Source of the DNA: a virus
DNA length: 49,717 bases
Reading direction: 5' to 3' (one strand)
Virus record (IMG/VR): IMGVR_UViG_3300034073_002380
Location: 1 to 49,717 of that record
Shown here: positions 21,001-33,193 of the stretch, in pieces
How positions within the stretch are numbered: position 1 is the first letter of the stretch
Layout: the number at the start of each line of letters is the position of its first letter
Notes under the pieces: model-generated
Database searches by the model: none
Told to the model about the DNA's origin: nothing
Seen by the model: the letters and a program-made list of their open reading frames with translations, nothing else
Position numbers and translations under genes: made by a program

Positions 21001-24000
21001 ACTCTACGCGATCGGTCAGGAGCAGGCCTCAGAAATCGGCCGGCTGCTTTCCAGCCTGAATGCCTCGGTCAACGACTTCGTGGCCTTTGCCCGAAACGTC
21101 CCCGGCTACCTCAACTCGCTCTACCTCGATGTTTTCAACGGCCGCGAGGTTGTCGGAATCCTAGGCAAGATCATGGCCGCCTACCGTGGCCAGTTCACGC
21201 CGGGCGCGATCGACCAGATCATCAACGACAACCCGGGTCTCCAGCCGGCAATCGACCAGCTGGGAGTCATGGCGTTGGTTGACACCGGTGGTCGGGTCTA
21301 CCGCGCCGTTCAGGGGCGACTCAAGGCCAAGAAGGCGCCGAGCCAGAAGGCCAAGGAGAAGCGCGCCCGGGAAGATGAAGCCATCGACCAGATCATCGAG
21401 ATCGCGTTGGCACTCGGTGTTACCGAGCCGCCGACGCCTGCTGGACGCCGACTGACTTCGGACGAGCGCCTCGCGCTGATGACCAAGCCTGCGACCCAGG
21501 CCAAAGTCCAGAAGGCCACCGAGGATGCCGTCAAGCAGGCAGAGTTCAACGCGGGCTGGAACATCATGATGGCCAGCGCGGCCGGCAATGAAGGCCTTCG
21601 CGCCCAGTACCAGGAGGCCATGGCGGCTGGCGAAGACCCCGCACCCGAGGCCATCGAGGAAGGCCTGGACCTCCCGCAGTACGCCCACTGGCGGACGATT
21701 CGCGACGGGTTCCTGAACTACTCGCCGACGACCATCAAGCTCGCCCAGGACGTGATTCGCGGCCGGTTCAAGGGTGTGCAGTTTGGGCCGAAGAAGCCCA
21801 CCCCTCCGGCGCCTCCCAAGGTTGACCTCGTTCGCCTGGTGCAGTCTCCCAATGAAGAGATGAGCCGCGTGATTGGCCAACAGCTGAACGCCATTGGCGC
21901 GATCATGGATGTTGCCGGCGCATCCCCCGAGGCCAAGGCCCGCGTGATGCAGATGATCACGGCCAACGTGGGTTCTCAGATCCAGCTGGCCCGTCAGCGT
22001 GTGCTGAACAGCTTCCTGGACACCAAGACCAAGACCAAGCCGGTGACCGCGAGCGATCGTTTGCAGCGGTTGATCAATGCCGGCATCACCGAGGACCCGC
22101 ACTACAAGACTCAGAAGACCCGGGACCTCCTCAAGCGGGTCGCCAACAAATTCATGAACACCAAGGAGTTCATGGATATGGCGACGCGGACCCGCGCCGA
22201 GAAACTGGCGTTCCTGAACCAGAAGTTCTTCGAGATCACGACCGCCGAGCGTCTGACCGACGAGTGGATGCAGGGCGCTGTCTGGACGCATCTGACCGAG
22301 AAAATGATGGAGGCCGAGAACTCCGTCGTGAGCCAGATCGTTGGCGCCAAGGACGTGAGCTTTGACCCGGCGCTCCCGAAGACCGATGCCCAGCGCGCCG
22401 CCGAACGCGCCAAGGCCGTCGAGCGCCTGGCAGGCGGCATCCGTGCGGGCCTGCTGGACCAGCGCATCGCCGAGAGTGTGGCGCGCAATCCGGCGTTGCA
22501 ACGGCTGGTGCCCAAGATGAGCGACCTGGTGAAGCGGGTGCTGGAGACGCCGCAGGGAACTCAAGCCCAGCTGGCCAAGGCGTTCTCTCAAGCACTCCTG
22601 AGTGAGCTTGCGATCGACCAGGCGCTGGCCGACAAGACCGGTGTTGCACTGGCCAAGGCATTCAGCGTCAAGTTTGAGCAGGCTCGCGTGAAGGCCTTGA
22701 AGCAGGCCGTCGAGAAGCTCACGCCGGAGGAAGCCAGGCAGGCCGGCCCAGGCACTCCGCTCTGGAAGAAGATCGAGCAGTTCGTGAACGCGGGCGGCAT
22801 GGATTCGACCACGCTCCTGCAAAGCATCGCACGTTCCGCCGGCTGGAAGGTGCCCAGCGAAGAGGAAGTCACGCGCCTTCGCGACCTGGCTCGCCTCGAG
22901 CAGAACCTCAGCACGGCCACTGCCGAGGAGAAGCAGAAGGGGATCACCGACGACATCAAGGCGGCGGCCAACCTTGGCAAGCGCGCCGAGATCATGCGCG
23001 AGATCCAGCGGCGTTGGGCCTCGATGACCATGCCCATCCGTGGCAACAAGGAGAACCGTGCGCGTGCGATCAACGAGTACGTATCGGCCAATCTGCTGTT
23101 CAAGATGGGCTTCATCACCAAGCAGCTGACCGACACGTTCACCCAGATGTTCTACTACACGCCGACGCGAGCAGTCGCAGCGGCGGCAAACCGGTACGCG
23201 ACCGACAAGTCACTGAATCGGCAGACGCGCCTGTGGAAGGATGTCGCGACCTCGCTCGAGGATTCTTACAAGGCGCGCTTCCAGGCGATCAACATGGCGC
23301 TCACGTCTGCCCTGGAGGCAGCCAAGGGCCGTGCCGAAAAGGACACCATCCTGGGAATCCAGAGTGGTATCCGGGCCCTGGACCGAGTGAACGCCCAGGC
23401 TACCGAGTATGCGAAGAAGGGTGACTACGCCCGCGCCACGGTGCTTCGCATCATCGGCATCTCCCAGCTGGCGTTCCGGTTCGCATCCTCACTGGACGCG
23501 CTCCAAGGCGTCCTGGCTGAACAACAGGAGATCGGCCTCTGGGCAGAGTCTCAGTTCCGGTTGCAGGGAATGACGCCTGCCGAGGCGCGGCGCGCTGCCA
23601 AGGCGGCGCTGGGTGACGCGATTGCGGAGTACGCACTGGCCCAGACGCTGGTTGGTGACGATCCCAACATCGCCCCGAAAGAACGCCGGGCTGCCGCATG
23701 GAACGTCGTGCGCGCTCGCCAGTACCAGCGCATCAAGGCAGCCGGCCTGGATGTCGATGCGCTCAAGGAAATCACCCAGGATATCCGATCAACCATCGGA
23801 TGGAACATCGAGGAGACCGGCGGCTTCGGTGGGGTGATCGGGCAGAACATCAAGAAGTTGAGCGACTGGATGTCGAAAATGGGCCTACCGAATCCGGTCG
23901 GCCGCTTCTCAAACGCGATCGCCATCGGCGTGAACCGTGCGCTCACGTTCGCTGGTGGCGGGTTCGTTCCCAAGGCGTTCGAGGGATCGGCCTGGTACAA

Positions 24001-24973
24001 GACCCCGGAAGACCTCGCCCAGCGCAAGATCGAGGCAGCCACCGGGCTCGGTCTGTCTGGTGCCCTCGGAGCACTGGTGCTCTCCGGCGCGCTGCGCGTA
24101 TTCACCAGGTGGCCGGACGACAAGGAGGAAGCTGACATCTGGGAGCGCGACGGGCACCGGCCGGGCACCATGGAACTCGATCTGCCTGGCGGTAAGATCC
24201 TGCGCGTCTCCCTCAACACCGGGCCGATCCAGATTGCTCGCCCAGCTCTGGCCGCCATCGGTGAGTTGCAGTACCAGATTTGGCATCGCAACCGGATGAA
24301 CCAGAAGGCCGAAGCTGCTGCCAAGAAGAAGGGCCTGAAGTTCGAGCCTCGAGAACTGACCGCCAAGGACATCGCCTGGTCACTAGGGTACGGCGCCTAT
24401 TCGGCGGTCGCCCAGGGGCGCACGGCTTCCGGCCTGATTGGGTCCGGTGTGTACCGCCAGTCGCCCGATATCGGCAAGATTGCGGCCGCATCTGTCAGTC
24501 CGCTGATTCCGTTCCAGCCGCTGATGCGCGAGGCCACCGCCATGGCGGGCCCGCAGTTCGATCCGAAGGAACAGACGTTCATCAACCTCCTGGTGCCGAC
24601 GCCCTGGAGCGGCAAGGTCGATCGGAACTTCCTTGGCGACCCCGTTGGCACCCCGCGTGCCCAGGAGCGCATCATGTCGATCCTCACCGGCGGCACCGCG
24701 ATCATCGGAGGCCCAGAAGAAGATCGCGCTTACGAGGTGCTCAAGGCTACTGGGTGGACGCCGGCAACCCAGCAGAACAACCGGTTCTACCAGTTCGGGC
24801 GAGTTCAGCGCCAGGCCACTCCGGAAGAGTTGACCAGGATGCAGGAGGTTCGTGCGACAGAACTCAAGACGCGCATCTCGCAGCTGGATCCTCAGACTGC
24901 GACCAAGCGCCGCCTCGATCGCATCGAAGACATCGCGAATGATCGTGCGAAAAAAGCGGTTGGCGCAAGATAG
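15071..24973 (+). CDS. Giant polyvalent ejection protein with SNF2-type helicase (3,300 aa)
   Basis: This single gene is a fifth of the genome. It opens MPRIVEIPDVARLSFPDDLS, then a Gly/Ala-rich part (about 135-330) typical of large injected phage proteins. Further on are an ExoX-C-like segment (VGFGKHSNLLVKDLFAQ, about 710), a small module with RKWQDDIKAEGGRY (about 805), and an SF2/SNF2 ATPase at about 890-1400: APGTGKT (937), IFDEAHAIKN (1005), ATPFENP (1043), ATMAKGGTGLSL (1310), EQVSLRSARYG (1343). A compact beta module (GDRFSVQGEQFEV, about 1610) is followed by long Ala-rich helices to the end, with a hydrophobic stretch near 3000. Its closest type is the DarB-like/polyvalent proteins packaged and injected to protect or process incoming DNA. 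No methylase or lysozyme motif was seen. Codon use becomes GC-richer after about 19 kb. Confidence 0.8.
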   Translation: MPRIVEIPDVARLSFPDDLSEDEILAATRNFYEQSKQGAIGAAGSAAIREPARQTGGAMKALARLGDWFQPPDINPETGIPVWQRAESTFFGPETVTPVEKPPEVPLEERGLYKAGEALQRGAEKMFPVSPLREEDFLTQVGAGIGSLPTSIIPYAGPVIYGLSAGEDAAEKAGKFYDNKIAEAMAAGNATEASRLQEEKKSQQAIQFGINAPLGYATERLLGVVPGVKQITEGGGKLIPKLAAGQTVENAKKLAGYFAKQGIKPTAGEFAQEGLEQVGGNLGEMTYNPEAEFTAGVLDASGVGGTVGAVTSIPLALLGSKLRKNRLDRIKDFRDTRLAEGPLSDQQINEINNRIVAGRPFTEAQPGAFLSLLEDDPAVQSSVGGNNAELLPNATATLAGINSGGAPSGPIRIVPPEDESTLTSIGAKLPEMQLETDVGEEILTTTPDAIQKQGADESLLRGEGSQVGLSEVDQGGRAPEGEGAEAQGQAEVQPLTIEETQEYNRAVDSLGGASAYDVLNEEELTRFEDLGERVRQLEDAGWLFDEETGWTNPAAPAPAPTVAPAETPTAPAAAAPVAPVTSRTFPFQDRKVDGMIDRDTGDIIAFAKSIVGTPDERGSSPKYTIRVDQDVTIDASSEKALDNALQKISSGAPVRVFRNAGKGVTLDFNEPGPVTPAPVTTPAAPRPVATPRPAPTPTPRPAPAPQNALANQTVGFGKHSNLLVKDLFAQQPDYAMWLVRSTRSAAPGSRTRQVGDYIVDLFEYQQAVLKAKADSEAVLTNENQAALAKLRINAFVNPDGSIAISGNTRKWQDDIKAEGGRYSKDSQSWTIDAAGLGRFISRSGPDSGTAGQQRSSSAAYTRNTELRKLREDADNRPDRSGLEGGVDNYLGVETQELIRQGEEFGIPREVGDEQIEDAALMVQAFANKRPFFMLSSAPGTGKTFVLGAGIREMQDRFARNIIYVTLNRGLIKQIQQDLKAYNLGPVKFITYSEMKDLPAEESDVLIFDEAHAIKNLAGSGSEQAKKAQEWILKTKFPIFSTATPFENPTQTAYLLNTGIFDSFGDYKQFALTYGATPIRDSGGNIVRTVWLPTKTNEQDQIAARNFFRKEGIFTARKTRLPANQVDSRLVAIKGDEEWTNTYNAFAAEAEAQKSSIDGTEKMWIINYKKRLLEASKIRNAISEARRALNAGRWPIIFVETKAERSIDIEEQRRLQDEYNRDKALAKMMGGETPRRSDYPGLLSDGIINVLEATMDRLGTTVISIPSAEDVIKNEIGANDVAIFTGSVPDARAQKNLELWRGPRPMVLVATMAKGGTGLSLHDKTGKHPTTQINVNLPWTATQVEQVSLRSARYGLKGTAQMQWLFADNIPFERELAARVGGRMRDMGALVQGEAGAAATNIKNFNFEDESFSEANAAEAAKKDLTKEEPKVTPPPTTPAPAAAPKAKKAREWTFRGDILDDIINLGGVMSRSQAKKEGRLDAIKSLYDDAPRLKPFFNKIFAGRSRGTASRNQPDVLLQELAMENPGKYGDMTVAEFWAEIEKAARGREGDAAEARKEAKAAAAGAEEAMGLDAFLQAQDEAFADAQAEAMQRKDEPGGPIEVSVGSLSLGDRFSVQGEQFEVTGITPDGDYTIRDGQKFGVQSLTEYDTIFVDEPPDRGGGDTFNFPSEPPDRGGGGAVNAPTEGPAPAERKPRLAAGENQGDLIASTQAEPFALVGEQVVDLEARKQKAQAAARAAAEAKAAQEKAQTQMDLGDAASQAADAIAQFVESITPKAGITEGPTPEESARRVLKALADLAAAAIRAGVQTATEWASSLNLKLTPALQYAWDQAQGATAEPTPEIIEDVQNISRNAPSSDFGMVYSTPEEPVTTKRGAFEDRVAGRRALTRGVRDAGIQLALDAFNEAGVKVRSVTGDLFAPVDGVDQEAAGRRLITVAIEKLRQATIEGRRDTTYSLINSLRNHFGIAEGFSPETRNKLYAIGQEQASEIGRLLSSLNASVNDFVAFARNVPGYLNSLYLDVFNGREVVGILGKIMAAYRGQFTPGAIDQIINDNPGLQPAIDQLGVMALVDTGGRVYRAVQGRLKAKKAPSQKAKEKRAREDEAIDQIIEIALALGVTEPPTPAGRRLTSDERLALMTKPATQAKVQKATEDAVKQAEFNAGWNIMMASAAGNEGLRAQYQEAMAAGEDPAPEAIEEGLDLPQYAHWRTIRDGFLNYSPTTIKLAQDVIRGRFKGVQFGPKKPTPPAPPKVDLVRLVQSPNEEMSRVIGQQLNAIGAIMDVAGASPEAKARVMQMITANVGSQIQLARQRVLNSFLDTKTKTKPVTASDRLQRLINAGITEDPHYKTQKTRDLLKRVANKFMNTKEFMDMATRTRAEKLAFLNQKFFEITTAERLTDEWMQGAVWTHLTEKMMEAENSVVSQIVGAKDVSFDPALPKTDAQRAAERAKAVERLAGGIRAGLLDQRIAESVARNPALQRLVPKMSDLVKRVLETPQGTQAQLAKAFSQALLSELAIDQALADKTGVALAKAFSVKFEQARVKALKQAVEKLTPEEARQAGPGTPLWKKIEQFVNAGGMDSTTLLQSIARSAGWKVPSEEEVTRLRDLARLEQNLSTATAEEKQKGITDDIKAAANLGKRAEIMREIQRRWASMTMPIRGNKENRARAINEYVSANLLFKMGFITKQLTDTFTQMFYYTPTRAVAAAANRYATDKSLNRQTRLWKDVATSLEDSYKARFQAINMALTSALEAAKGRAEKDTILGIQSGIRALDRVNAQATEYAKKGDYARATVLRIIGISQLAFRFASSLDALQGVLAEQQEIGLWAESQFRLQGMTPAEARRAAKAALGDAIAEYALAQTLVGDDPNIAPKERRAAAWNVVRARQYQRIKAAGLDVDALKEITQDIRSTIGWNIEETGGFGGVIGQNIKKLSDWMSKMGLPNPVGRFSNAIAIGVNRALTFAGGGFVPKAFEGSAWYKTPEDLAQRKIEAATGLGLSGALGALVLSGALRVFTRWPDDKEEADIWERDGHRPGTMELDLPGGKILRVSLNTGPIQIARPALAAIGELQYQIWHRNRMNQKAEAAAKKKGLKFEPRELTAKDIAWSLGYGAYSAVAQGRTASGLIGSGVYRQSPDIGKIAAASVSPLIPFQPLMREATAMAGPQFDPKEQTFINLLVPTPWSGKVDRNFLGDPVGTPRAQERIMSILTGGTAIIGGPEEDRAYEVLKATGWTPATQQNNRFYQFGRVQRQATPEELTRMQEVRATELKTRISQLDPQTATKRRLDRIEDIANDRAKKAVGAR

Positions 24974-25017: not shown

Positions 25018-26027
25018 TGAGCAATCTTGCACTACAGCAAACCACTCCAACGCAATCCCAAGCACTGAGCGCGTTCTCTTCGGAGAGCGCGTTCGTTTCT
25101 GTGCAACGCATGGCCAAGGCCCTGGCGTCCAGCACGCTCGTTCCCGACGCGTATCGGGGCGAGGCCAACCTCGGCAACTGCATCATCGCGCTCGAACTCT
25201 CGCAGCGCATCGGCGCCTCGGTCATGGCCGTGATGCAGTCGATGGTTCCCATTCACGGCAAGCCCACGTGGTCTGCCGCCTTCCTGATCGCCACGGTCAA
25301 CAGCTGCGGCCGGTTCTCCCCGATGCGGTTCCGCTGGGTTGGAAAGGAGAACACCGACGAGTGGGGATGCCGCGCCTACGCTGTCGAGCGGGAAGGTAAC
25401 CTCGAACTGGTCGGCGCCCTGGTGACGATCGCCATGGCCAAGGCCGAAGGCTGGTACACCAAGAACGGTTCCAAGTGGAAGACCATGCCGGAGCAGATGC
25501 TTCAGTATCGCGCCGCTGCGTTCTGGACCCGCGCCTATGCGCCCGAGATCGCTCTCGGTATGCACACCGCCGAGGAGATCCACGACACGCCAGAGGCCAA
25601 TCAGGTCGTGAAGCCGGTCGTCATGGACGTGACTCCGACGCCGCCCGAGCCGAAGCCGCGCCGCACCAAGAAGGAGCCCGAGGCTGTCGTCGTGCAGGAG
25701 CCTACGCCGGTGCAGGTCGATCAGGTTGATTCGGAACCTGAGCCCGCGCCCGCCGCACCTGAGCCCGTGCCAGCACCTGAGCCCACGCCTGCTCCTGCTC
25801 CCGCACCGGTGGCACCTCCGGCCGAGAACATCGAAACCGTCGAGGGCACACTGCTGTCCATCGGCCTCACCTACGAGCAGCTGGTCGCCATGGCCACCGA
25901 ACTCAGCTGGTGGCCGAACCCCGAGGCGTACCCGACCGCCGCTGACCTGCCCGAGGAACTCGCCAACTGGGTGATCCGCAACCGCCGGGGCATCGCTCGC
26001 CAGGCGGCGAAGGGGGGTGCGAAGTGA
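25017..26027 (+). CDS. recT: RecT-family single-strand annealing protein
   Basis: Anneals complementary ssDNA in homologous recombination and replication. Residues 1-195 follow the RecT pattern: MAKALASSTLVPDAYRG, ANLGNCIIALELSQRIGAS, MQSMVPIHGKPTWSAAFLIA, then KWKTMPEQMLQYRAAAFWTR and APEIALGM. This core is followed by a Pro/Glu/Ala-rich linker (about 200-275) and a separate C-terminal domain (about 280-336, LSWWPNPEAYP), making it longer than usual RecT proteins (about 270 aa). It heads the operon directly behind a promoter-operator and overlaps the nuclease gene by GTGA, behind a GGGGGG ribosome site. The linker plus extra domain may hold a partner, for example SSB or the nuclease. Confidence 0.9.
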   Translation: MSNLALQQTTPTQSQALSAFSSESAFVSVQRMAKALASSTLVPDAYRGEANLGNCIIALELSQRIGASVMAVMQSMVPIHGKPTWSAAFLIATVNSCGRFSPMRFRWVGKENTDEWGCRAYAVEREGNLELVGALVTIAMAKAEGWYTKNGSKWKTMPEQMLQYRAAAFWTRAYAPEIALGMHTAEEIHDTPEANQVVKPVVMDVTPTPPEPKPRRTKKEPEAVVVQEPTPVQVDQVDSEPEPAPAAPEPVPAPEPTPAPAPAPVAPPAENIETVEGTLLSIGLTYEQLVAMATELSWWPNPEAYPTAADLPEELANWVIRNRRGIARQAAKGGAK

Positions 26028-26827
26028 AAATCGTCCACCCCATCAGCGTGGCTCAGTACCGCGCACACCCCGCGATCAACGTCTCTGCACTCAAGGCATT
26101 CAGTCGCTCGCCAGCCCACGCTCTGGCTGGGTTCGAGGAAGAGAAGGAGACCACCGAGGCCATGAACATCGGAAGCCTGCTGGACCACAAGGTCCTCGGC
26201 ACCGACTACCTGTTCACCACCAGCCCCTACGATGAGTTCCGCACCAAGGAAGCCCGGGCCTGGCGCGACGAGACCCGCGAGCGCGGCGTGACCGTCTTCA
26301 AGCAGGAAGAGATCGAGACTGTCGAGAAGATGGTTGCCAGCATCCGGGCTCACCCGGTCGCCTCGCACCTGCTCTTCAACCAGGCGGGGCGTTCCCAGGT
26401 GGGGATCTTCGGTGAGTTCGATGGCTGCGAGCGCAAGGGCCTGATCGATCGTGTGCCGGATATCACGCCGGTCCTGGTCGATCTGAAGAAGTGTCGTGAT
26501 GCCAGCAAGGCTGGTTTCCGTCGCCAGATTGGCCAGCTGCGCTACGACGTGCAGGCCGCGTACTATCGCGATCTGTGGCGTGACATCACCGGCGAGACTC
26601 GGGAGTGGCAGTGGGTCTGCGTCGAAGACTTCGAGCCATACGCAGTGGCCGTGTACCAGCTGGATCGGGAATCCTGCGAGGTAGCATCACGCACTTGGCA
26701 GAGTTGGATTCGGCAGTGGATGGCCTGCGAGGACACGGACTCCTGGCCGGGATACAACGGGGACAGCGCGGGATTGATTTCCAGCCCCACGTGGATCCTG
26801 AAGAATGAAAGCACCACTGACTTCTGA
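26024..26827 (+). CDS. RecE-like PDDEXK exonuclease
   Basis: Expected to resect dsDNA ends to give ssDNA for the RecT partner. The 267-aa protein has the N-terminal VAQYRAHPAINVSALKAFSRSP of the exodeoxyribonuclease VIII-like PDDEXK family. The catalytic core reads FGEFDG, KGLIDRVPD and VLVDLKKCRDAS, then RRQIGQLRYDVQAAYYRD, providing the D, DxK and Q/Y elements. The GTG start overlaps the recT stop, so the two are translationally coupled, as in RecE/RecT and lambda Exo/Bet pairs. Its last 23 bases overlap the next gene. Confidence 0.88.
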   Translation: MKIVHPISVAQYRAHPAINVSALKAFSRSPAHALAGFEEEKETTEAMNIGSLLDHKVLGTDYLFTTSPYDEFRTKEARAWRDETRERGVTVFKQEEIETVEKMVASIRAHPVASHLLFNQAGRSQVGIFGEFDGCERKGLIDRVPDITPVLVDLKKCRDASKAGFRRQIGQLRYDVQAAYYRDLWRDITGETREWQWVCVEDFEPYAVAVYQLDRESCEVASRTWQSWIRQWMACEDTDSWPGYNGDSAGLISSPTWILKNESTTDF

Positions 26828-27062: not shown

Positions 27063-27795
27063 ATCCGTCTCCATCCAGATTGTTCCAGCCGCATTCACGA
27101 TGCGACAGGACGTGCTGGATGACTCCGCCACCATCATCACCGTCAGCACACCAGCCACACAGAAAGCCGCCGTCGAAGCTGCCCGCGCAATCGCCAGCCT
27201 GCTCAAGGCTGTCGAGACATCACGCAAGGAGGCCAAGGCGCCCGTGCTGGACCTCGGGCAGCGTATCGATGCGACCGCCAAGGAGTTCATCAAGGACGTG
27301 CTGGCAGAGGAAGCGCGCCTGAAGCGACTGCTGACCGACTACGAGATCGAGCAACGCCGGCTGGCCATGGAAGCCGAACGCAAGCGCCAGGAGGAAGAAC
27401 GCAAGCTGCGCGCCGCAGAGGAGGCGCGACTGGCCGAGATCCGCCGTCGCGAAGAGGCCGCACGTCGTGACGCCATGATGGCCGAGACCGAAGCGCAACG
27501 CATCGCGGCCGAACGTGCTCAGGCTGCTGCCGCTGCCGAACGTGTTGTTGCTGCCGCTGCGGCTCGAACCGTCGTTGCTCCGGTGCCGATCCAGTCGGTC
27601 AAGGCTGCTGGCACGATCGTGCGCGACGAATGGAACTTCGAGGTCACCGACCTGGCCGCATTCGCTGCTGCCCATCCTGAGTTGGTGGAGATCACCGTGA
27701 AGCGCGCTGCCGTGTTGCAGAAGATCCGGGCCGGGTGTCGGCAGCTGGCTCACACCAGGATCTTCGAGGAAACCAAGGTGGGGGTGCGCTCATGA
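27034..27795 (+). CDS. Coiled-coil protein of recT operons (253 aa)
   Basis: Residues about 45-170 are a long charged helix rich in Glu, Arg and Ala (EARLKRLLTDYEIEQRRLAM), clearly coiled coil. The C-terminal 60 residues (TIVRDEWNFEVTDLAAFAA ... VEITVKRAAVLQKIRAG) are the small domain seen at the end of DUF1351-like proteins that accompany recT in many phages. Its role there is unproven; assistance to recombination is inferred from constant linkage. The start at 27034 lies inside the HTH gene; the stop overlaps the next ATG (ATGA). Confidence 0.75.
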   Translation: MNALQIRNTESVSIQIVPAAFTMRQDVLDDSATIITVSTPATQKAAVEAARAIASLLKAVETSRKEAKAPVLDLGQRIDATAKEFIKDVLAEEARLKRLLTDYEIEQRRLAMEAERKRQEEERKLRAAEEARLAEIRRREEAARRDAMMAETEAQRIAAERAQAAAAAERVVAAAAARTVVAPVPIQSVKAAGTIVRDEWNFEVTDLAAFAAAHPELVEITVKRAAVLQKIRAGCRQLAHTRIFEETKVGVRS

Positions 27796-28085
27796 ACCTG
27801 CTCAAGGAAGCTCCATCAATCGTCAGCAAAGCCATCTCACGCGGTCTGATATCGTACCCGCATGGCACCGAGTTCACCATCGACGGTCGGCCCAAGCCGA
27901 AGCTCGATGAGGTGCGCTACAAGAAGACGCCGCTGGAGCAGTACGCCTGCCTGCGCGCATGGGAGATGTCATGCAAAGGCATACCAAGGAAGGACATCGC
28001 TGTCGCAATCCGGTGCCCACTGGCGCGCCTGGATGCGGTGCTGGCACACGGCAAGGAGATTCACAAACGGAGGAACGCGAAATGA
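27792..28085 (+). CDS. Hypothetical protein with possible HTH (97 aa)
   Basis: A 97-aa basic protein. The C-terminal half reads LRAWEMSCKGIPRKDIAVAI then a second helix LARLDAVLAHG, compatible with a helix-turn-helix, followed by a basic tail (KEIHKRRNAK). It is coupled by ATGA overlaps on both sides. The start was moved to ATG 27792, since the longer frame overlaps the coiled-coil gene by 60 bases. Function unknown; DNA binding is a guess from charge and helix pattern. Confidence 0.65.
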   Translation: MNLLKEAPSIVSKAISRGLISYPHGTEFTIDGRPKPKLDEVRYKKTPLEQYACLRAWEMSCKGIPRKDIAVAIRCPLARLDAVLAHGKEIHKRRNAK

Positions 28086-28360
28086 CACCTGAAGAACGAA
28101 TGAGTCGGATCAATGATATCAGCTGGTGGCCGACCCACCATCTTTGCAGGAAGATTCCAAACACCCCCGCCGCCCGCGCCAAATTCATGAACACGCTCCA
28201 CGACATCATTGCCCGCAAGCCAGAGACACCCCGCAACAAGGTGGGCGCCGCGCTGGTGACCGACTTCGACAAGGTCTCCGCTGATCCAGCTGACATTGCC
28301 GAGGCCGTGCTCGTCACGCTGGGTGAGATTGAGGCGGTGAAGAAAGGGGGGAAGTTGTGA
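28082..28360 (+). CDS. Hypothetical protein (92 aa)
   Basis: Begins MTPEERMSRINDISWWPTHH, then KFMNTLHDIIARKPETPRNK and a C-terminal acidic-hydrophobic helix (DIAEAVLVTLGEIEAVKK). No recognised family. The ATG overlaps the preceding stop (ATGA), preceded by GGAGGAACGCGAA, a good ribosome site. The stop overlaps the next GTG (GTGA) behind GGGGGG. It belongs to the coupled early accessory row. Confidence 0.65.
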   Translation: MTPEERMSRINDISWWPTHHLCRKIPNTPAARAKFMNTLHDIIARKPETPRNKVGAALVTDFDKVSADPADIAEAVLVTLGEIEAVKKGGKL

Positions 28361-28629
28361 GCCAACCAATCGACGACGGGGGACCGGCGTTTCCTAGCGA
28401 GGAACAAATACGCTGCAACGGTGAAGTATGTGACACTCGCAAGTTCCCCGGCATGACACTCCGCGACTACTTTGCTGCGGCGGCCACTGAAAAAGACATT
28501 CAGGAGTTTATTCCTGCAACCTGTGGAGAAGCTGATCAGTTCCGGCAAAAACACGGATTCTTACCAAGTCGTCAGTGGGCGAGATATTGCCATGCCGACG
28601 TGATGCTTAAGGCGAGAAACCGCCAATGA
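28357..28629 (+). CDS. Small phage protein of the DGGPAFP/GMTLRDYF family (90 aa)
   Basis: Carries the hallmark motifs DGGPAFPSEE (about residues 7-16) and FPGMTLRDYFAAAA (about 28-43), ending with YCHADVMLKAR. Short proteins with this pattern are very widespread in phages and prophages near recombination genes, but their job is unknown. The GTG start overlaps the previous stop behind a GGGGGGAAGTT ribosome site. From here to about 29.93 kb the DNA is visibly AT-richer than the flanks. Confidence 0.8.
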   Translation: MSQPIDDGGPAFPSEEQIRCNGEVCDTRKFPGMTLRDYFAAAATEKDIQEFIPATCGEADQFRQKHGFLPSRQWARYCHADVMLKARNRQ

Positions 28630-28680
28630 CCGTTTCACTCAATATATCAACTCCACCAAACACTGAAACATAAACAACAA

Positions 28681-28935
28681 ATGAAAGACACAATGAACAA
28701 ATACAAAGTAATTAAAGTGGGCATTCATAAATGGATTCTCCGACCAAACAATGGCCGCGAAATCGCTCCTGCTCTGACCGATATCGTGAAGGAGTTAAAC
28801 CTACTTCTCAAAGAGCGCGACAACGCTCATGCACGGCTAAGGCGTCTGGAGATCACCGGAAACCAAATGCTGTCTGGTATCCCGAGAAGTGAGGCGGAGC
28901 GTATCTGGAACGAAGCATTGGAGTCCAAGCCATGA
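28681..28935 (+). CDS. Small coiled-coil accessory protein (84 aa)
   Basis: After a basic beta segment (KYKVIKVGIHKWILRPNNGR) comes a helix (KELNLLLKERDNAHARLRRL) and the tail LEITGNQMLSG...RIWNEALESKP. The tail resembles the end of the protein at 29279-29716 (LKTAGNEMYKF), suggesting paralogy. The 51-base gap before it is A/C-rich (ATAAACAACAAATG) with no Shine-Dalgarno. ATG 28693 is an alternative start. The end forms the first copy of the GGAGTCCAAGCCATGA junction. Confidence 0.65.
   Translation: MKDTMNKYKVIKVGIHKWILRPNNGREIAPALTDIVKELNLLLKERDNAHARLRRLEITGNQMLSGIPRSEAERIWNEALESKP
28920..28935 (+). promoter_or_regulatory. Stop/start junction cassette, copy 1
   Basis: GGAGTCCAAGCCATGA: ribosome site GGAG, the last codons Lys-Pro of the upstream gene and an ATGA overlap of stop and start in 16 bases. 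It is one of six near-identical junctions between 28.9 and 30.8 kb (also 29267, 29913, 30152, 30364, 30750). Confidence 0.85.
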
Positions 28936-29282
28936 CAGACATAGAAATCAACGAAGCGATCGCTTTGCAGCTTGGATGGGTGAAGTGCGCCTGCGGAGAT
29001 ATTCAGTGTGGCGTATGGTTTCCTCATGGAACATCACACCCAAACGAGGCTGAACTTGGTGTCCCAAGTTTCTGCAAAGACCTCAACGCAATGGCGGAAG
29101 CGGAGCAGTTTCTGGACTCTACGAATGGAGGGATCACAGACCCGAATTGCTTGCGATACGCCTACTGCAGCGAGGTCTACCGAATCGTTCCAGACACCGT
29201 TCAACCATTCAGGGCGTCGGCTCGTCAACGCGCAGAGGCATTTCTGAGGACGGTTGGAAAGTGGAAGGAGTCCAAGCCGTGA
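28932..29282 (+). CDS. Phage ABA-sandwich-like protein (116 aa)
   Basis: The pattern MTDIEINEAIALQLGW ... CKDLNAMAEAEQFLDS ... YRIVPDTVQPFRASARQRAE ... AFLRTVGKWKE matches the common phage family with a small alpha-beta sandwich (the DLNAMHEAE signature). The N-terminus contains CACGDIQC, a possible metal site. Proteins of this kind are variable early accessory genes with no known activity. The gene is flanked on both sides by the repeated GGAGTCCAAGCC junction, and its C-terminus is ESKP. Confidence 0.75.
   Translation: MTDIEINEAIALQLGWVKCACGDIQCGVWFPHGTSHPNEAELGVPSFCKDLNAMAEAEQFLDSTNGGITDPNCLRYAYCSEVYRIVPDTVQPFRASARQRAEAFLRTVGKWKESKP
29267..29282 (+). promoter_or_regulatory. Stop/start junction cassette, copy 2
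   Basis: GGAGTCCAAGCCGTGA: identical to copy 1 except GTG for ATG at the start codon. It ends the 116-aa gene as Ser-Lys-Pro-stop and starts the next gene at GTG 29279. Confidence 0.85.
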
Positions 29283-29716
29283 GACATCCAAGCTATTGCT
29301 GTCAGAATTGCGGAGACTTTATTGGATGGATGGGACGATTTATGTTTCCATTCTTCCACAAATGCAGAAACAAAACAACAAAACACATGACTGAATACAC
29401 AACACAAACTACATCAATCAAGTTCGACAAAAACCCCATAAACCCTCTTGTTTTACTTCACTATGATGGTCGTGTGACTATCGGTGATGATCTGAAGCCA
29501 GATGAGGCTGCGAAGCAGATGTTCAATATTTTTAAGGATCTTTGGGCAAATGACGCACAGTCAGCAAAGATCAGGGATTTGGAGCTTCATATTCTCAAGC
29601 TGAAGACAGCAGGAAATGAAATGTACAAGTTTATCAATCCTCCTTCGCCGTGCATGAGGACGACCAGAATGGATAACCTATTGCAGGGCTGGGATGACGC
29701 AAAAGATCAACATTAA
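29279..29716 (+). CDS. Zinc-ribbon plus accessory domain protein (145 aa), possible fusion
   Basis: Reading from GTG 29279 gives CCQNCGDFIGWMGRFMFPFF and HKC, a short Cys motif with hydrophobic segment, running in frame into MTEYTTQTTSIKFDKN at ATG 29388. The second part (109 aa) has PLVLLHYDGRVTIGDDLKP and a helical tail LKTAGNEMYKFI, like the 84-aa protein at 28681. ATG 29388 has an A/C-rich leader (AACAAAACAACAAAACAC) resembling that before 28681, so it may be an independent start. Either two products come from one frame or two small genes have fused. AT-rich codon use throughout. Confidence 0.6.
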   Translation: MRHPSYCCQNCGDFIGWMGRFMFPFFHKCRNKTTKHMTEYTTQTTSIKFDKNPINPLVLLHYDGRVTIGDDLKPDEAAKQMFNIFKDLWANDAQSAKIRDLELHILKLKTAGNEMYKFINPPSPCMRTTRMDNLLQGWDDAKDQH

Positions 29717-29739
29717 CTAACATATAATTGGTCAAAATC

Positions 29740-29928
29740 ATGAATAGTATTTCAGAATCATTACTATATGGATTCATTGCAGGTGCATTGATGTTTTTTG
29801 GAATTCTATGGGGATCGCATCTAGCTGATTCAAAAATGAAAAAAGAAGCCGTGATGAGGGGTTATGCTGAATGGATAGTCAACCATAGCGGCAAAACACA
29901 GTTCAAATGGAAGGAGGCCAAGCCGTGA
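29740..29928 (+). CDS. Small single-pass membrane protein (62 aa)
   Basis: MNSISESLLYGFIAGALMFF begins a hydrophobic stretch (about residues 8-28) that continues GILWGSHL, followed by a charged cytoplasmic-type segment (DSKMKKEAVMRGY) and the tail KWKEAKP. ATG 29740 was preferred over the upstream TTG 29728. The 23-base gap before it is AT-rich with no clear ribosome site. The end forms junction copy 3. Unknown function; small membrane proteins in early regions may be exclusion or takeover factors. Confidence 0.65.
   Translation: MNSISESLLYGFIAGALMFFGILWGSHLADSKMKKEAVMRGYAEWIVNHSGKTQFKWKEAKP
29913..29928 (+). promoter_or_regulatory. Stop/start junction cassette, copy 3
   Basis: GGAGGCCAAGCCGTGA with a full GGAGG ribosome site 7 bases before GTG 29925. 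It encodes the end Glu-Ala-Lys-Pro of the membrane protein. Confidence 0.85.
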
Positions 29929-30167
29929 GTGATATTGAACATGAACTGATCGCCACTCAATGGGATCTGAAAGTCGCCAAAGACCGCATCGAACTACTCA
30001 TGTCCGCAAACGCCGACGTGGCTCGCATCGCCGCAGAGCGAGACGCAGCCGAGAAACGGGTGATGCACCTGGAAGCTGCACTCCGCAAGATCGCCGACCA
30101 GGATTATCGCGGTCCGCGTTCGACGGAATCGGAGATCGCCTTGAGGGCGCTGGAGGCCAAACCGTGA
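29925..30167 (+). CDS. Coiled-coil early protein (80 aa)
   Basis: Almost entirely helical: IEHELIATQWDLKVAKDRIE, ADVARIAAERDAAEKRVMHL, EAALRKIAD, then the signature STESEIALRALEAKP. Short phage coiled-coil proteins ending in a similar ALRKIAD...A..AL pattern are very common and uncharacterised. GTG 29925 was chosen because the junction's GGAGG is at ideal spacing; the open frame reaches 18 bases further. Both ends are junction cassettes. Confidence 0.7.
   Translation: MSDIEHELIATQWDLKVAKDRIELLMSANADVARIAAERDAAEKRVMHLEAALRKIADQDYRGPRSTESEIALRALEAKP
30152..30167 (+). promoter_or_regulatory. Stop/start junction cassette, copy 4
   Basis: GGAGGCCAAACCGTGA, one base different from copy 3 (AAA for AAG, a silent lysine change). 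It joins the 80-aa and 71-aa genes. Confidence 0.85.
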
Positions 30168-30379
30168 CCACCACCCGAATCAACACCCTCGAAGAACTCT
30201 ACGAAGCCGCAGAGGCCAAGCGGGCTGTCGTGTTACCGTGGAGAGGCAGACGGCCATCACCAGCTGCATGGGTGATCAACCTCCCGGGACGCCTGCTTTA
30301 TCGAGAACTCAAGGAAGGAATCTACCTGTACGAAAAACCCACCCGTGATGGGCGTGTAAAGAAGGAGGACAAGCCGTGA
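30164..30379 (+). CDS. Hypothetical early protein (71 aa)
   Basis: RINTLEELYEAAEAKRAVVL, then PWRGRRPSPAAWVINLPGRL and a beta end (EGIYLYEKP) before RVKKEDKP. No family recognised; the arginine/proline centre and short strands suggest a compact alpha-beta fold. GTG start at 30164 from junction copy 4; the stop is in copy 5. This frame is longer upstream but overlaps the 80-aa gene completely, so the junction start is preferred. Confidence 0.6.
   Translation: MTTTRINTLEELYEAAEAKRAVVLPWRGRRPSPAAWVINLPGRLLYRELKEGIYLYEKPTRDGRVKKEDKP
30364..30379 (+). promoter_or_regulatory. Stop/start junction cassette, copy 5
   Basis: GGAGGACAAGCCGTGA: differs from copy 3 by one base, turning EAKP into EDKP, with the ribosome site and GTGA overlap kept. 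Confidence 0.85.
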
Positions 30380-30765
30380 GCGACGAACACAAATGCCCTC
30401 GGTGCAATGCACCATTCTGGCATTTTACCGGAGTTAACACGCGCAAGTTTGAGTGCGGATCAGACACTCAGATTCCGTCCATGGCTTGCAGGTACGCATC
30501 GCAACTTCAGGAGCGCATCAAACTGCTGGCACATGAGCTTGAATCGGCTGGTGTTGAACGCGGCATCGCTGTCGTCAACGAAGGCATTGCGACGAACGAA
30601 AACACTCGCCTGCGCGAGCGCATCACACGCCTAGAATCCTGGATCAACAACCTTGACGAAGTCCTCCGCTACAACGGCAAGGACGGCCAGCGCGAGTGGT
30701 GCGGCAGCGAGGTGGGTTACCTGTACCAGGGGCAGATGGTGTATCTGGGAGGGTGCAAGCCATGA
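30376..30765 (+). CDS. Zinc-ribbon coiled-coil early protein (129 aa)
   Basis: The N-terminus holds CPRCNAPFWHF, then a second Cys pair (FECGS ... MACRYA), a plausible zinc ribbon. The middle is a long coiled coil (LQERIKLLAHELESAGVERG, TRLRERITRLESWINNL). The end reads WCGSEVGYLYQGQMVYLGGC then Lys-Pro. The GTG start comes from junction copy 5 and the stop sits in copy 6. Function unknown; zinc ribbon plus coiled coil suggests binding of a host protein or nucleic acid. Confidence 0.65.
   Translation: MSDEHKCPRCNAPFWHFTGVNTRKFECGSDTQIPSMACRYASQLQERIKLLAHELESAGVERGIAVVNEGIATNENTRLRERITRLESWINNLDEVLRYNGKDGQREWCGSEVGYLYQGQMVYLGGCKP
30750..30765 (+). promoter_or_regulatory. Stop/start junction cassette, copy 6 (divergent)
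   Basis: AGGGTGCAAGCCATGA, the most divergent copy. The last 11 bases before the overlap keep the CAAGCC[AG]TGA core and a GGGAGGG ribosome site lies just upstream (30747-30753). It joins the 129-aa and 65-aa genes. Confidence 0.7.
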
Positions 30766-30959
30766 ATCCGTTCAAATGGTATCGCAACTGGCGAATACGC
30801 CGCATTGAAGAGCGTATCGCTTACCTTGAAAGCTATTGCGACTTTTTTAAGGTCGAAGGCGGCACTCCATACAAAATAGTCGTCTATCATGGACTGGAAG
30901 ATAAGAAGGCCGAGATCGCGCAACTTCGCAAGCGGTTGTACCACATCCGAGAGTTCTGA
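30762..30959 (+). CDS. Small basic coiled-coil protein (65 aa)
   Basis: Basic N-terminus (FKWYRNWRIRRIEERIAYLE), then a hydrophobic-strand segment (TPYKIVVYHGL) and a helix DKKAEIAQLRKRLYHIREF. Two amphipathic helices around a beta turn suggest a helical hairpin. Starts at ATG 30762 in junction copy 6; the next gene begins 2 bases after its stop. Unknown function. Confidence 0.6.
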   Translation: MNPFKWYRNWRIRRIEERIAYLESYCDFFKVEGGTPYKIVVYHGLEDKKAEIAQLRKRLYHIREF

Positions 30960-30961
30960 CC

Positions 30962-31192
30962 ATGACCCCCGACGACCGCCCTCTCGAAGGCCAATTCGCA
31001 TTCGTCTATCGCCACCGGAAAACCGGCGAGATCCGCGTTCTGAACTGCGAGCAAGCGCGTGTCATGGACCGGGCCCGAGGCGACTGGATCCACACGGCCA
31101 CGCTCAATCTGCACGTCTGGGTTCAGCACCTCCTGAACCTGCCAGCACGGAAACGTCCGCACGCAATCCGCACTATCATCGAGAATTTGTGA
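30962..31192 (+). CDS. Hypothetical protein (76 aa)
   Basis: Reads PLEGQFAFVYRHRKTGEIRV (two beta strands), then a helix NCEQARVMDRARGDWIHTAT and a C-terminal basic helix. No family recognised. It starts 2 bases after the previous stop (TGACCATG) without a strong ribosome site, and its stop overlaps the next GTG (GTGA). The run of junction cassettes ends upstream of it. Confidence 0.55.
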   Translation: MTPDDRPLEGQFAFVYRHRKTGEIRVLNCEQARVMDRARGDWIHTATLNLHVWVQHLLNLPARKRPHAIRTIIENL

Positions 31193-31374
31193 ACCTCCTA
31201 CAACGCATCCTCCGAGCCATCCGTGGCCCGCGCAGACGCATCGGCAGACCTCCGCTGCACCCATCCAAGATCGCCGCGATCCGGGGCGCGCCTGACCACA
31301 TCGGCGACACCGAACTCGCGAAGCTCCTTGGCGTCTCGCTTCGGTCCATCCGAAAATATCGGCATGAACGCTGA
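31189..31374 (+). CDS. Small HTH DNA-binding protein (61 aa)
   Basis: A very basic N-terminus (LLQRILRAIRGPRRRIGRPP) is followed by a helix-turn-helix: HPSKIAAIRGAPDHIGDTEL, then AKLLGVSLRSIRKYRHER. Its HTH resembles the resolvase/transposase-type unit that senses spaced half-sites. GTG 31189 overlaps the upstream stop. As one of two small HTH proteins in this operon it could regulate early or middle transcription; no target is identified. Confidence 0.65.
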   Translation: MNLLQRILRAIRGPRRRIGRPPLHPSKIAAIRGAPDHIGDTELAKLLGVSLRSIRKYRHER

Positions 31375-31576
31375 GACCATCGCAGCAGCCCTGGCCGAGC
31401 GCATCGGCTGTGGCTGCCAGCATCCCAATCTGTGCTACACCTGCACACGAATCCTCCGTCAATACCAAGCCCTCAAACGATTCCAACAATGTTCTCTCAC
31501 ATCGGCGAACTCCCCAAACACCTGTACGTCTGGATCCCAGACACGTTCATCTGTACCAACCCCACCGGCCAGCTGA
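31364..31576 (+). CDS. Small cysteine-motif protein (70 aa) with a deep overlap
   Basis: The first 40 residues look real: NAETIAAALAERIGCGCQHP, then LCYTCTRILRQYQAL, with two Cys pairs that could bind zinc. From about residue 42 the frame lies over the next gene for 88 bases and becomes Ser/Thr/Pro-rich (SANSPNTCTSGSQTRSS), typical of a shadow frame. Either the protein carries a non-conserved tail or the ancestral stop has been lost. It starts inside the HTH gene. Confidence 0.5.
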   Translation: MNAETIAAALAERIGCGCQHPNLCYTCTRILRQYQALKRFQQCSLTSANSPNTCTSGSQTRSSVPTPPAS

Positions 31577-32046
31577 TCCCAGCTGTCTGGTTCGGCATCA
31601 ACTCCACCCCGGGCCGCACCTGGGGATGCACCGTCCTGCTCGAATGCGGTGCGATCTATCGCAGCCTGCCGCCCAACGCGATCCGGTTCAGCAAGGATGC
31701 CGACCCCAGCGACTTCTGGTGCCATGAAAACGCCCAACGCTGGGACTGCTACGGCTGGCGCTTCAGCTGCATCGAATACACCTACCTGCGCGGCATGGAT
31801 GTTATCGCCAAGACCAACGGCGGCGAGTTCCTGGGCCAGTACCTCTTCACCGCCGCGCCGTTCGACGACGCGTTCTCGGATCATCCTTCGCAGGCCAAGG
31901 AGTTCACGTTCATCCGAACCAGGTGCCAAACACTGACGATCCAGCCGACCGACAAGCTCCTGGTCATCGACAAGTCATTCACCCCGGACGTGCAAGCATG
32001 GCCTGACAACCTCCGTCGTTCCGACACCATCTACTACTGTGAGTGA
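31489..32046 (+). CDS. Hypothetical protein (185 aa)
   Basis: Several aromatic- and cysteine-containing strands: HIGELPKHLYVWIPDTFICT, LIPAVWFGINSTPGRTWGC, CHENAQRWDCYGWRFSCIEY, TYLRGMDVIAKTNGGEFLGQ, then IRTRCQTLTIQP. No recognised family; the spacing of Trp and Cys suggests a compact beta protein. ATG 31489 follows CCAACA without a ribosome site. The end overlaps the following GTG by 8 bases. It is the largest unknown of the early plus operon. Confidence 0.65.
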   Translation: MFSHIGELPKHLYVWIPDTFICTNPTGQLIPAVWFGINSTPGRTWGCTVLLECGAIYRSLPPNAIRFSKDADPSDFWCHENAQRWDCYGWRFSCIEYTYLRGMDVIAKTNGGEFLGQYLFTAAPFDDAFSDHPSQAKEFTFIRTRCQTLTIQPTDKLLVIDKSFTPDVQAWPDNLRRSDTIYYCE

Positions 32047-32301: not shown

Positions 32302-32604
32302 CTATTTTTTAGGCGGCACAACCGCAAGTGTTTTTATCACCCGATCGGCCAGATCCCGCGTCGGCTTGAAGAACACCTTCGGCCTCGGTGGGATCGGGAT
32401 CGCGACACCGGGCTTCAGCGGGTTCCGCCCGACCATCGGCTTCGTCCAGCGGACCTCGAAGTGACCCAGCCCTGGGATGTCCATCTCACCCTTCAGGATC
32501 TCCTGAACGATGATCTCCACGACCGAATCCACCACGCTCTGGGCGTGTGGCACCAGCAGGCCGCACTCATCCGCCACCTGCCTCGCGATCTGCCGGCGTG
32601 TCAT
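32302..32604 (-). CDS. IHF/HU-like DNA-bending protein (100 aa)
   Basis: Histone-like fold: RRQIARQVADECGLLVPHAQ, the dimer helix VVDSVVEIIVQEILKGEMDI, then PGLGHFEVRWTKPMVGRNPL, matching the conserved GFG.F.v..r..R.GrNP arm region of HU/IHF, and VFFKPTRDLADRVI at the end. Length (100 aa) is close to IHF. It would bend DNA for recombination, packaging or regulation. The ATG overlaps the upstream stop by one base (TGATG). It is the last gene before the terminator. Confidence 0.9.
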   Translation of the reverse strand: MTRRQIARQVADECGLLVPHAQSVVDSVVEIIVQEILKGEMDIPGLGHFEVRWTKPMVGRNPLKPGVAIPIPPRPKVFFKPTRDLADRVIKTLAVVPPKK

Positions 32605-32834
32605 CAGTTCTCCCCTCCCGGCTGCGGCTGGCCCTCGACCATGGCCTGAATCGCCCGGCGCGCCACGCTGCCAGCGATCAACGCCGGCGTCGGCCGCACC
32701 TGGGTCCCGTCGCCTTCCAGCGGCGGATGCACGTCCAAGCTCAAATGAAAACCGCCATCGGCGTCTTCGATCACGATCGTGACCGTTCGCTTCGTGACCT
32801 CCGCACTGCCGGTGCTGGTAATCTCCGAACTCAT
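32604..32834 (-). CDS. Hypothetical protein (76 aa)
   Basis: EVTKRTVTIVIEDADGGFHL, then SLDVHPPLEGDGTQVRPTPA and a helix AGSVARRAIQAMVEGQ. The pattern resembles small accessory proteins in the cargo regions of phages and plasmids. The start at 32834 overlaps the upstream stop (ATGA); GGGAGGG just before gives a ribosome site. Function unknown. Confidence 0.6.
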   Translation of the reverse strand: MSSEITSTGSAEVTKRTVTIVIEDADGGFHLSLDVHPPLEGDGTQVRPTPALIAGSVARRAIQAMVEGQPQPGGEN

Positions 32835-33193
32835 TCCGCCCTCCTTCCCTGCACCCGGGCAACCTTCTGACCCTGCCACGGCGGCGGGGTCTGCGAAGCC
32901 CGGTTGATCGAATCGATCACCGCCGGGTTCGTCACCGGCTGGATCAATGGCGTCTTCACGACCTGCGGGATCGTCGTGTTGCCACGCGGCCCGTTCACCA
33001 CGATGCCCTGCACGCGGATCGTCCGCCGCTTCTCGTTCAGTTCCTTCATCTGTTCCGATCGCCGCTGCCGATCCTCCTCGGTGATCTGCTTCGGCCGACC
33101 GCGACCGCGACGACCCAGCTGGGAAGCCGCCTGACTCACCGCCGGTGGCACCAGCGGCGCCTCTTCCGGACTCTGATTCTCGTTCTCGTTCAT
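32831..33193 (-). CDS. AT-hook-like basic protein (120 aa)
   Basis: An acidic N-terminus (NENENQSPEEAP) leads to RRGRGRPKQ, an AT-hook core (GRP flanked by basic residues), then a charged helix (EEDRQRRSEQMKELNEKRRT) and a Pro/Thr-rich end. A minor-groove DNA binder is likely from the motif. The leader before ATG 33193 is GGGAACCATAGAAACC, without a clear ribosome site. It is coupled downstream to the 76-aa gene and the IHF-like gene. Confidence 0.6.
   Translation of the reverse strand: MNENENQSPEEAPLVPPAVSQAASQLGRRGRGRPKQITEEDRQRRSEQMKELNEKRRTIRVQGIVVNGPRGNTTIPQVVKTPLIQPVTNPAVIDSINRASQTPPPWQGQKVARVQGRRAE

Follow-up and report, generated by a model that had tools for sequence, protein, structure and literature searches.

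Why do neighbouring small genes of a phage, with unrelated products, end and begin in nearly the same sequence? We address this question for a 49,717-nucleotide (nt) virus record, IMGVR_UViG_3300034073_002380, which was read whole and is called the window here. In it, an array of small accessory genes lies downstream of recT, and a short repeat, the cassette, spans the end of one gene and the start of the next. Our analysis favors, with a probability of roughly 0.8, the reading that the junctions of this array are codon-locked, that genes and blocks of genes are swapped at them, and that half-genes are swapped at a second seam inside the genes; recombination at these seams is what we infer from the pattern. 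The arrangement resembles a natural system by which a group of uncultured phages mixes and matches small, rapidly changing accessory genes.

A repeated stop/start junction in the window

The strict pattern GGAGKMCAARCCRTGA (GGAG[GT][AC]CAA[AG]CC[AG]TGA) has exactly five matches in the window, all on the + strand (28920, 29267, 29913, 30152 and 30364; Table 1); shuffled sequences scored at up to one mismatch gave a mean of 0.01 matches, and five were reached in 0 of 100 shuffles. At all five cassettes the upstream open reading frame (ORF) ends in (E)(A/S/D)KP-stop and the next ORF opens at a GTGA or ATGA overlap. This bears out a preliminary description of the same DNA, according to which each gene ends as Lys-Pro-stop within an overlapping start and unrelated proteins share an E(A/S/D)KP tail. 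As a looser pattern with three mismatches was matched in the window at chance level, it was discarded, and the repeat in the window is claimed on the strict pattern. The preliminary description counted six near-identical cassettes; five stand, whereas the sixth, at 30750 (AGGGTGCAAGCCATGA), is diverged, with three mismatches in register, and is missed by the weight matrix introduced below. It is better read as GGAGG-GTGCAAGCC-ATGA with a spacer 2 nt longer, and the gene head downstream of it is preceded by three different upstream sequences in the window, L244 and L228 (contigs of the comparison carry the letter L, gene families the letter F). One array junction has no cassette: a stop at 29716 is followed by an ATG at 29740.

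All five strict cassettes are edges of homology. Segment 29265-29916 matches L184 over 652 nt at 94.9% identity, with its edges at the cassettes at 29267 and 29913; segment 29267-29745 matches L129 over 479 nt at 97.1% identity; and matches to L229 begin at 28920 and end at the GGAG of 29267. Further downstream, the L171 match (99 nt, 92.9%) runs to the TGA of the cassette at 30152, and matches from L040 (168 nt, 88.7%), L016 and L008 begin at the cassette at 30364. The gene at 29925-30167 is chimeric: its first part is that of L008 (93.8% over 80 nt, from the cassette at 29913) and the next part that of L006 (96% over 80 nt). In the close RecT relatives L007 and L008, the recT-exonuclease stretch has 85-87% nucleotide identity to the window, and the arrays are largely different.

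Anatomy and spread of the junction

The window RecT, used as a query, brought in 79 loci, and a 30-nt weight matrix trained on RecT-found loci detected 563 cassettes on 186 viral contigs, with no match of at least 14 bits in a reversed control sequence. Many of the contigs were retrieved through the motif, so these counts are no measure of prevalence, and the tests that follow apply to sequences known to have a site. The cassette is a feature of gene junctions in these genomes: of the 563 sites, 551 (98%) terminate an ORF of 40 codons or more, and of the 550 testable sites, 537 (98%) begin one; 287 of 373 intervals between cassettes consist of exactly one ORF. A contig can carry the cassette at up to 11 junctions. 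In most close RecT-type relatives the repeat follows recT, in the same orientation, at a distance of 1-3 kb; at least one cassette was found in 25 of the 27 RecT-type relatives that have at least 4 kb of downstream sequence, and in 2 of 30 distant RecT relatives, with one site each.

A 21-mer of the consensus matches at least 120 stretches of viral contigs and has five matches in 84,980 bacterial and archaeal genomes. Four of these are single matches; the remaining one (L251, JAURFH010000292.1) is a 4-kb contig of a Verrucomicrobiota metagenome-assembled genome with an array of several such genes, a weak hint at a Verrucomicrobiota host given that a binning error is possible. A RecT search in 289 Verrucomicrobiota returned six matches, all distant, and neither megablast nor blastn found a nucleotide match among named phages (50,697 phage records).

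The 30-nt junction consensus is TGGCACAAAGCCAAGGAGGCCAAGCCGTGA, with the core GGAGGCCAAGCCGTGA; it comprises the tail and stop codon of the upstream gene, the Shine-Dalgarno sequence AAGGAGG, its spacer of 7 nt, and the start of the next gene, which overlaps the stop. Sequence information falls steeply past the TGA, which indicates that the upstream gene carries the element with it as its tail. Its codons are set by position: Lys -8 is AAA, Lys -6 and Lys -3 are AAG, and Ala -7 and Ala -4 are mostly GCC (background 27%). Such position-specific codons, found also at the internal seam described below, argue for conservation at the level of DNA. Overlapping junctions outside the arrays have other spacers, and GGAG is present in the site window of 18% of them vs. 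87% inside arrays. Cassette identity within a phage (0.669) is no higher than between phages (0.677); we therefore rejected homogenization of cassettes within genomes, and place the cassettes in one pool shared between phages.

Homology between contigs ends at the cassette

The 509 testable junctions represent 434 different gene-family pairs, and a single family, F0, comes after 30 different families across 38 junctions. These families were defined by strict greedy clustering, as single-linkage clustering lumped 495 proteins into a single family, probably owing to the chimeric nature of the genes. Inter-contig homology ends at the cassette in 78% of alignments, or 76% per site (n = 386), when right ends are considered, as against 2-3% at random positions and 12-13% at other overlapping gene junctions, both outside the arrays, and 11-13% at other array positions. 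Left ends give 78% at cassettes, with controls higher than those for right ends (5% at random positions, 17% at overlapping junctions and 31% at other array positions). Right ends are 18-fold enriched within 4 nt after the TGA; the break rate climbs with the matrix score (0.38, 0.75 and 0.85); and in alignments that are 97% identical or more, cassettes contain 57 of the 111 left ends (12.8 expected) and 59 of the 112 right ends (8.3 expected).

The clearest case is a two-gene block of 649 nt that is 100% identical in L030, L053, L112 and L153 and has a cassette at both edges; beyond both edges, L153 differs from the other three. We judged flank similarity by blastn on matching sides of the contigs: 98 of the 138 locus pairs with comparable flanks and a shared array segment that is 95% identical or more show no detectable flank similarity, which indicates that modules move between phages of different backbone. 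The search for simple insertions of a whole module gave one clean case (L126/L100), probably because the arrays turn over too fast. As judged from these alignments, genes and gene blocks have been exchanged between phages with their edges at the junction, and they come from a pool common to phages whose flanks are not recognizably related at the nucleotide level. The earlier proposal that the repeat serves as a homology seam for gene swaps is upheld by the breaks at 76-78% of cassettes, by blocks of 95-100% identity edged by cassettes on both sides, and by the replication of arrangements across metagenomes.

A second seam inside genes

Breakpoints that lie off the cassette cluster at CGCATCAAGCGGCTGGAGGAGGC, translated in frame as RIKRLEEA. 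Copies collected by DNA similarity number 301 on 149 contigs, and the break rate there is 77-82% per site vs. 13-16% for matched controls. Because this collection was made by DNA similarity, codon bias was checked on copies gathered by the protein motif: CGC encodes the first Arg of RIKR in 75% of them, compared with a background of 34%, and CGG encodes the Arg at the fourth position in nearly all, compared with a background of 18%. When 272 genes were divided at the motif, the parts formed 143 head clusters and 105 tail clusters, joined in 223 combinations, a pattern showing that half-genes, i.e. N-terminal heads and C-terminal tails, have been exchanged at this in-frame seam. Array genes share further in-frame motifs, LERELNAAN and ENDALRADLLLW (the latter codon-biased, with 76 distinct copies), which may be additional seams. 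We found no precedent for a second seam inside genes in a partial coverage of the literature, and its novelty is therefore a matter of judgement.

A possible mechanism and what weighs against it

We envisage that any two arrays would have microhomology at their seams; that homologous or annealing recombination would unite them in frame and leave a functional ribosome site; that most such crossovers would yield an expressible gene; that the agent would most likely be a phage annealing protein (RecT in the group of the window), acting during co-infection; and that the array would be kept in turnover by selection for new small proteins directed against the host or its defences. In the window, recT and the gene for a RecE-like nuclease lie just upstream of the array, and proteins of the Red-beta/RecT (Rad52-like) type are a plausible enzyme for relaxed recombination of the kind that drives phage mosaicism, as they work on short or diverged homology (PMC3945230, PMC2327257). 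Among 26 carriers retrieved by the cassette alone, 12 have a RecT-family (PF03837) match and 2 more a Sak4-like match above cut-off; ERF had no match in these 26 records and Rad52 none in the 14 carrier records tested. The link of RecT to the exchange is suggestive.

Several findings speak against our reading. Non-cassette junctions inside the arrays break too, at 0.50-0.54, which indicates that selection for clean gene borders contributes as well; the preliminary description had named gene changes not bounded by the cassette as a finding that would refute it, and this applies in part. The other 12 of the 26 cassette-found carriers have neither a RecT-family match nor a Sak4 match above cut-off, in records that may be fragments. 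Finally, for cassettes paired at random, the median of shared contiguous identical bases is 6-10, and 23 is reached in only 4-5% of cases, so that the identity at most seams is shorter than the minimum of 23-27 identical bases quoted for Red-beta (31-34 for RecA; PMC3945230). Exchange would accordingly be rare or would use partial identity; RecET can join 5-13 bp at a frequency of about 1e-8 (PMC2327257).

Alternative explanations

The repeat could simply be a preferred ribosome site with a stop/start overlap, kept or re-evolved for coupling, while illegitimate joins occur anywhere and those with clean borders survive. AAGGAGG at a distance of 7 nt from an overlapping GTGA is the textbook, indeed ideal, arrangement for coupling; we infer that the cassette gives coupled translation, and the breaks at non-cassette array junctions fit this explanation too. 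Translation alone is nevertheless an unlikely account: conservation extends to the spacer CCAAGCC and to AAAGCC upstream; junctions outside the arrays use other spacers and far less often GGAG; the break rate goes up with the cassette score; and the internal seam breaks at 77-82%, in a place that is no gene boundary.

Conservation might instead reside in the protein, the KAKEAKP tail (and the RIKRLEE motif) being a functional C-terminal signal or a coiled-coil interface and the exchange incidental. The tail is indeed common to unrelated proteins and the internal seam encodes a coiled-coil-like motif, but the fixing of codons by position (AAA for Lys -8, AAG for Lys -6 and -3, CGC and CGG for the Args of RIKR), the frequent replacement of KP by KL (CTG 94 and CCG 261 of 431) and the low confidence of the tail in the single model made (predicted local distance difference test, pLDDT, 57) make this highly improbable. 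Misassembly has to be considered because every carrier record is derived from a metagenome and repeats are known for chimeric joins, so that assemblers could have joined unrelated contigs at short shared repeats. However, 138 of 439 junctions were found again in another metagenome, and for 152 swap pairs both arrangements are replicated in independent metagenomes; in addition, the median ratio of nonsynonymous to synonymous substitution rates (dN/dS) across 15 array families is 0.15-0.43. As swapped arrangements recur independently, we give misassembly very little weight. The dN/dS values also show that the exchanged array genes are protein-coding genes under purifying selection.

Beyond exchange at the seams as such, the array could be a dedicated two-seam diversity generator, in which DNA-locked seams, kept at gene ends and midway through coiled-coil genes, let heads, tails and whole genes from a cross-lineage pool recombine in frame. 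We put this forward tentatively and with some doubt; if true, such a generator would make new small proteins combinatorially, like exon shuffling without introns. The origin of phage mosaicism has long been debated: one view credits homologous exchange at short boundary sequences, the other random joining with subsequent selection. An explicit repeated boundary sequence, near-identical blocks that represent recent transfers, and an internal seam make this debate testable on one natural system, and the 30-nt matrix offers a handle for mining undescribed, fast-turnover small phage genes that may act against hosts. The arrays also point to in-frame domain shuffling as a possible source of new phage genes.

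Relation to known systems

The closest precedents are the boundary sequences of lambdoid phages and the PeSLs of T4-type phages; the array works alike and matches neither in sequence or structure. Boundary sequences were reportedly described for lambdoid phages, including their nin region, by Susskind and Botstein and by Clark et al. in 2001. There, as here, small overlapping genes occupy a variable region and homologous exchange is proposed at short conserved border sequences; in the arrays such a border sequence occurs at 563 sites, and homology stops there (76-78% vs. 2-13% in controls). The concept is cited in PMC3029335, which also points out that boundary sequences are not findable at most mosaic joints. 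In lambda, the 14 nt before the start are 41% identical among six ATGA/GTGA (nin) junctions, compared with 81% among the window cassettes and 84% in the arrays, and the nin junctions of lambda and of Medea1 differ from one another as well as from the cassette. Moreover, the array differs from the lambdoid system in having one sequence at many junctions of a contig as well as a seam inside genes. In the nin-like regions of the Pseudomonas phages Medea1 (L252) and Cruim01 (L253), the gene before ninG has a cassette-like 3′ end (AAAGCCAAGGAGGCCGAGCCATG in Medea1), and the other junctions differ.

PeSLs (Arbiol 2010, Comeau 2014) are described in PMC4503421 as mobile regulatory cassettes, made up of a promoter and a stem-loop, between accessory genes, and are thought to mediate shuffling; to that extent they resemble the cassette, as a repeated short element between accessory genes with proposed gene shuffling between phages. 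Unlike a PeSL, the cassette lies in coding sequence. A search with the sigma-70 consensus found 0 promoter-like sites in 27700-31600, the array region of the window has no terminator-like site on the + strand, and the five cassettes show no unusual fold (z-scores -1.1 to +0.8 with RNA energy parameters). By the same calculation they lack the stable fold expected of the imperfect palindrome of an integron attC site, and no match to an integrase, such as the IntI-type tyrosine recombinase of integrons, was found in the subset of window proteins scanned. Start-associated sequences (SAS) and extended SAS (ESAS) of cluster K mycobacteriophages are likewise short repeats just upstream of many gene starts, in unrelated gene families, and are suggested recombination targets (PMC3203893); their consensus GGGATAGGAGCCC differs from that of the cassette, and the excerpted report mentions neither a stop-codon overlap nor a shared tail and offers exchange at SAS as a suggestion (PMC3203893).

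Genes of the array and its surroundings

Searches of the array proteins against Pfam, PHROG and NCBIfam assigned no function. The AlphaFold2 model of array gene 2 has a pLDDT of 78, and its fold matches uncharacterized phage proteins only. Coordinates are collected in Table 1.

Table 1. Cassettes, seams and genes of the array region, with window coordinates
Feature	Positions	Strand	Basis and remarks
Cassette 1, GGAGTCCAAGCCATGA	28920..28935	+	Strict and matrix match; left edge of L229 homology
Cassette 2, GGAGTCCAAGCCGTGA	29267..29282	+	Strict and matrix match; left edge of L184 and L129 blocks; right edge (at GGAG) of another L229 match
Cassette 3, GGAGGCCAAGCCGTGA	29913..29928	+	Strict and matrix match; right edge of L184 block; left edge of L008 match
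Cassette 4, GGAGGCCAAACCGTGA	30152..30167	+	Strict and matrix match; right edge of L171 match
Cassette 5, GGAGGACAAGCCGTGA	30364..30379	+	Strict and matrix match; left edge of L040, L016 and L008 matches
Sixth, diverged junction, GGAGGGTGCAAGCCATGA	30748..30765	+	Spacer 2 nt longer; under weight-matrix threshold
Internal-seam-like position in gene 5	30057..30074	+	L171 homology begins there
Internal seam in gene 7, CGCATCAAACTGCTGG	30514..30529	+	L040 homology ends there
Array gene 1, 84 amino acids (aa)	28681..28935	+	ORF; no Pfam/PHROG match above threshold
Array gene 2, 116 aa, family F12	28932..29282	+	ORF, clustering, AlphaFold2 model
Array gene 3, 145 aa	29279..29716	+	C-terminus also in family F14 genes with another N-terminus
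Array gene 4, 62 aa, family F8; alternative TTG start 29728	29740..29928	+	ORF, clustering
Array gene 5, 80 aa, chimeric: head as L008, remainder as L006/L009/L171	29925..30167	+	
Array gene 6, 71 aa	30164..30379	+	tblastn relatives in L015, L021, L029, L040, L054 and L007
Array gene 7, 129 aa; Cys-containing N-terminal head, coiled-coil-like middle	30376..30765	+	
Gene 8, 65 aa, after the diverged junction	30762..30959	+	ORF
RecT-family single-strand annealing protein, 336 aa	25017..26027	+	PF03837 1.4e-5; phrog_561 3.1e-70
RecE-like/PDDEXK exonuclease (DUF3799)	26024..26827	+	Profile matches

G+C content drops to 45% at 29001-30000 (array genes 2-4) vs. 60% elsewhere in the genome, which is consistent with imported modules. 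In other arrays, a sibling junction GGAGTGCAAATGA (K-E-C-K-stop; e.g. L041 near 12749-12763) is frequent at F8-type genes and has a class break rate of about 0.54, and family F0 occurs twice in the array of L007 (13606-13788 and 14651-14830); the two copies are identical at the 5′ end, which points to a recent event of duplication or re-acquisition. Around the window array, a single ORF of 3,300 aa at 15071-24973 (+) contains a helicase-like ATPase region (ResIII/SLFN-type, residues about 906-1069) and has no assignment over the rest of its length; directly downstream of the array, 31486-32046 (+) encodes a 186-aa protein matching phrog_3704 (labelled ferredoxin, E 8e-17); and beyond it, a 186-aa ORF at 32302-32862 (-) has a DNA-binding protein match (phrog_379).

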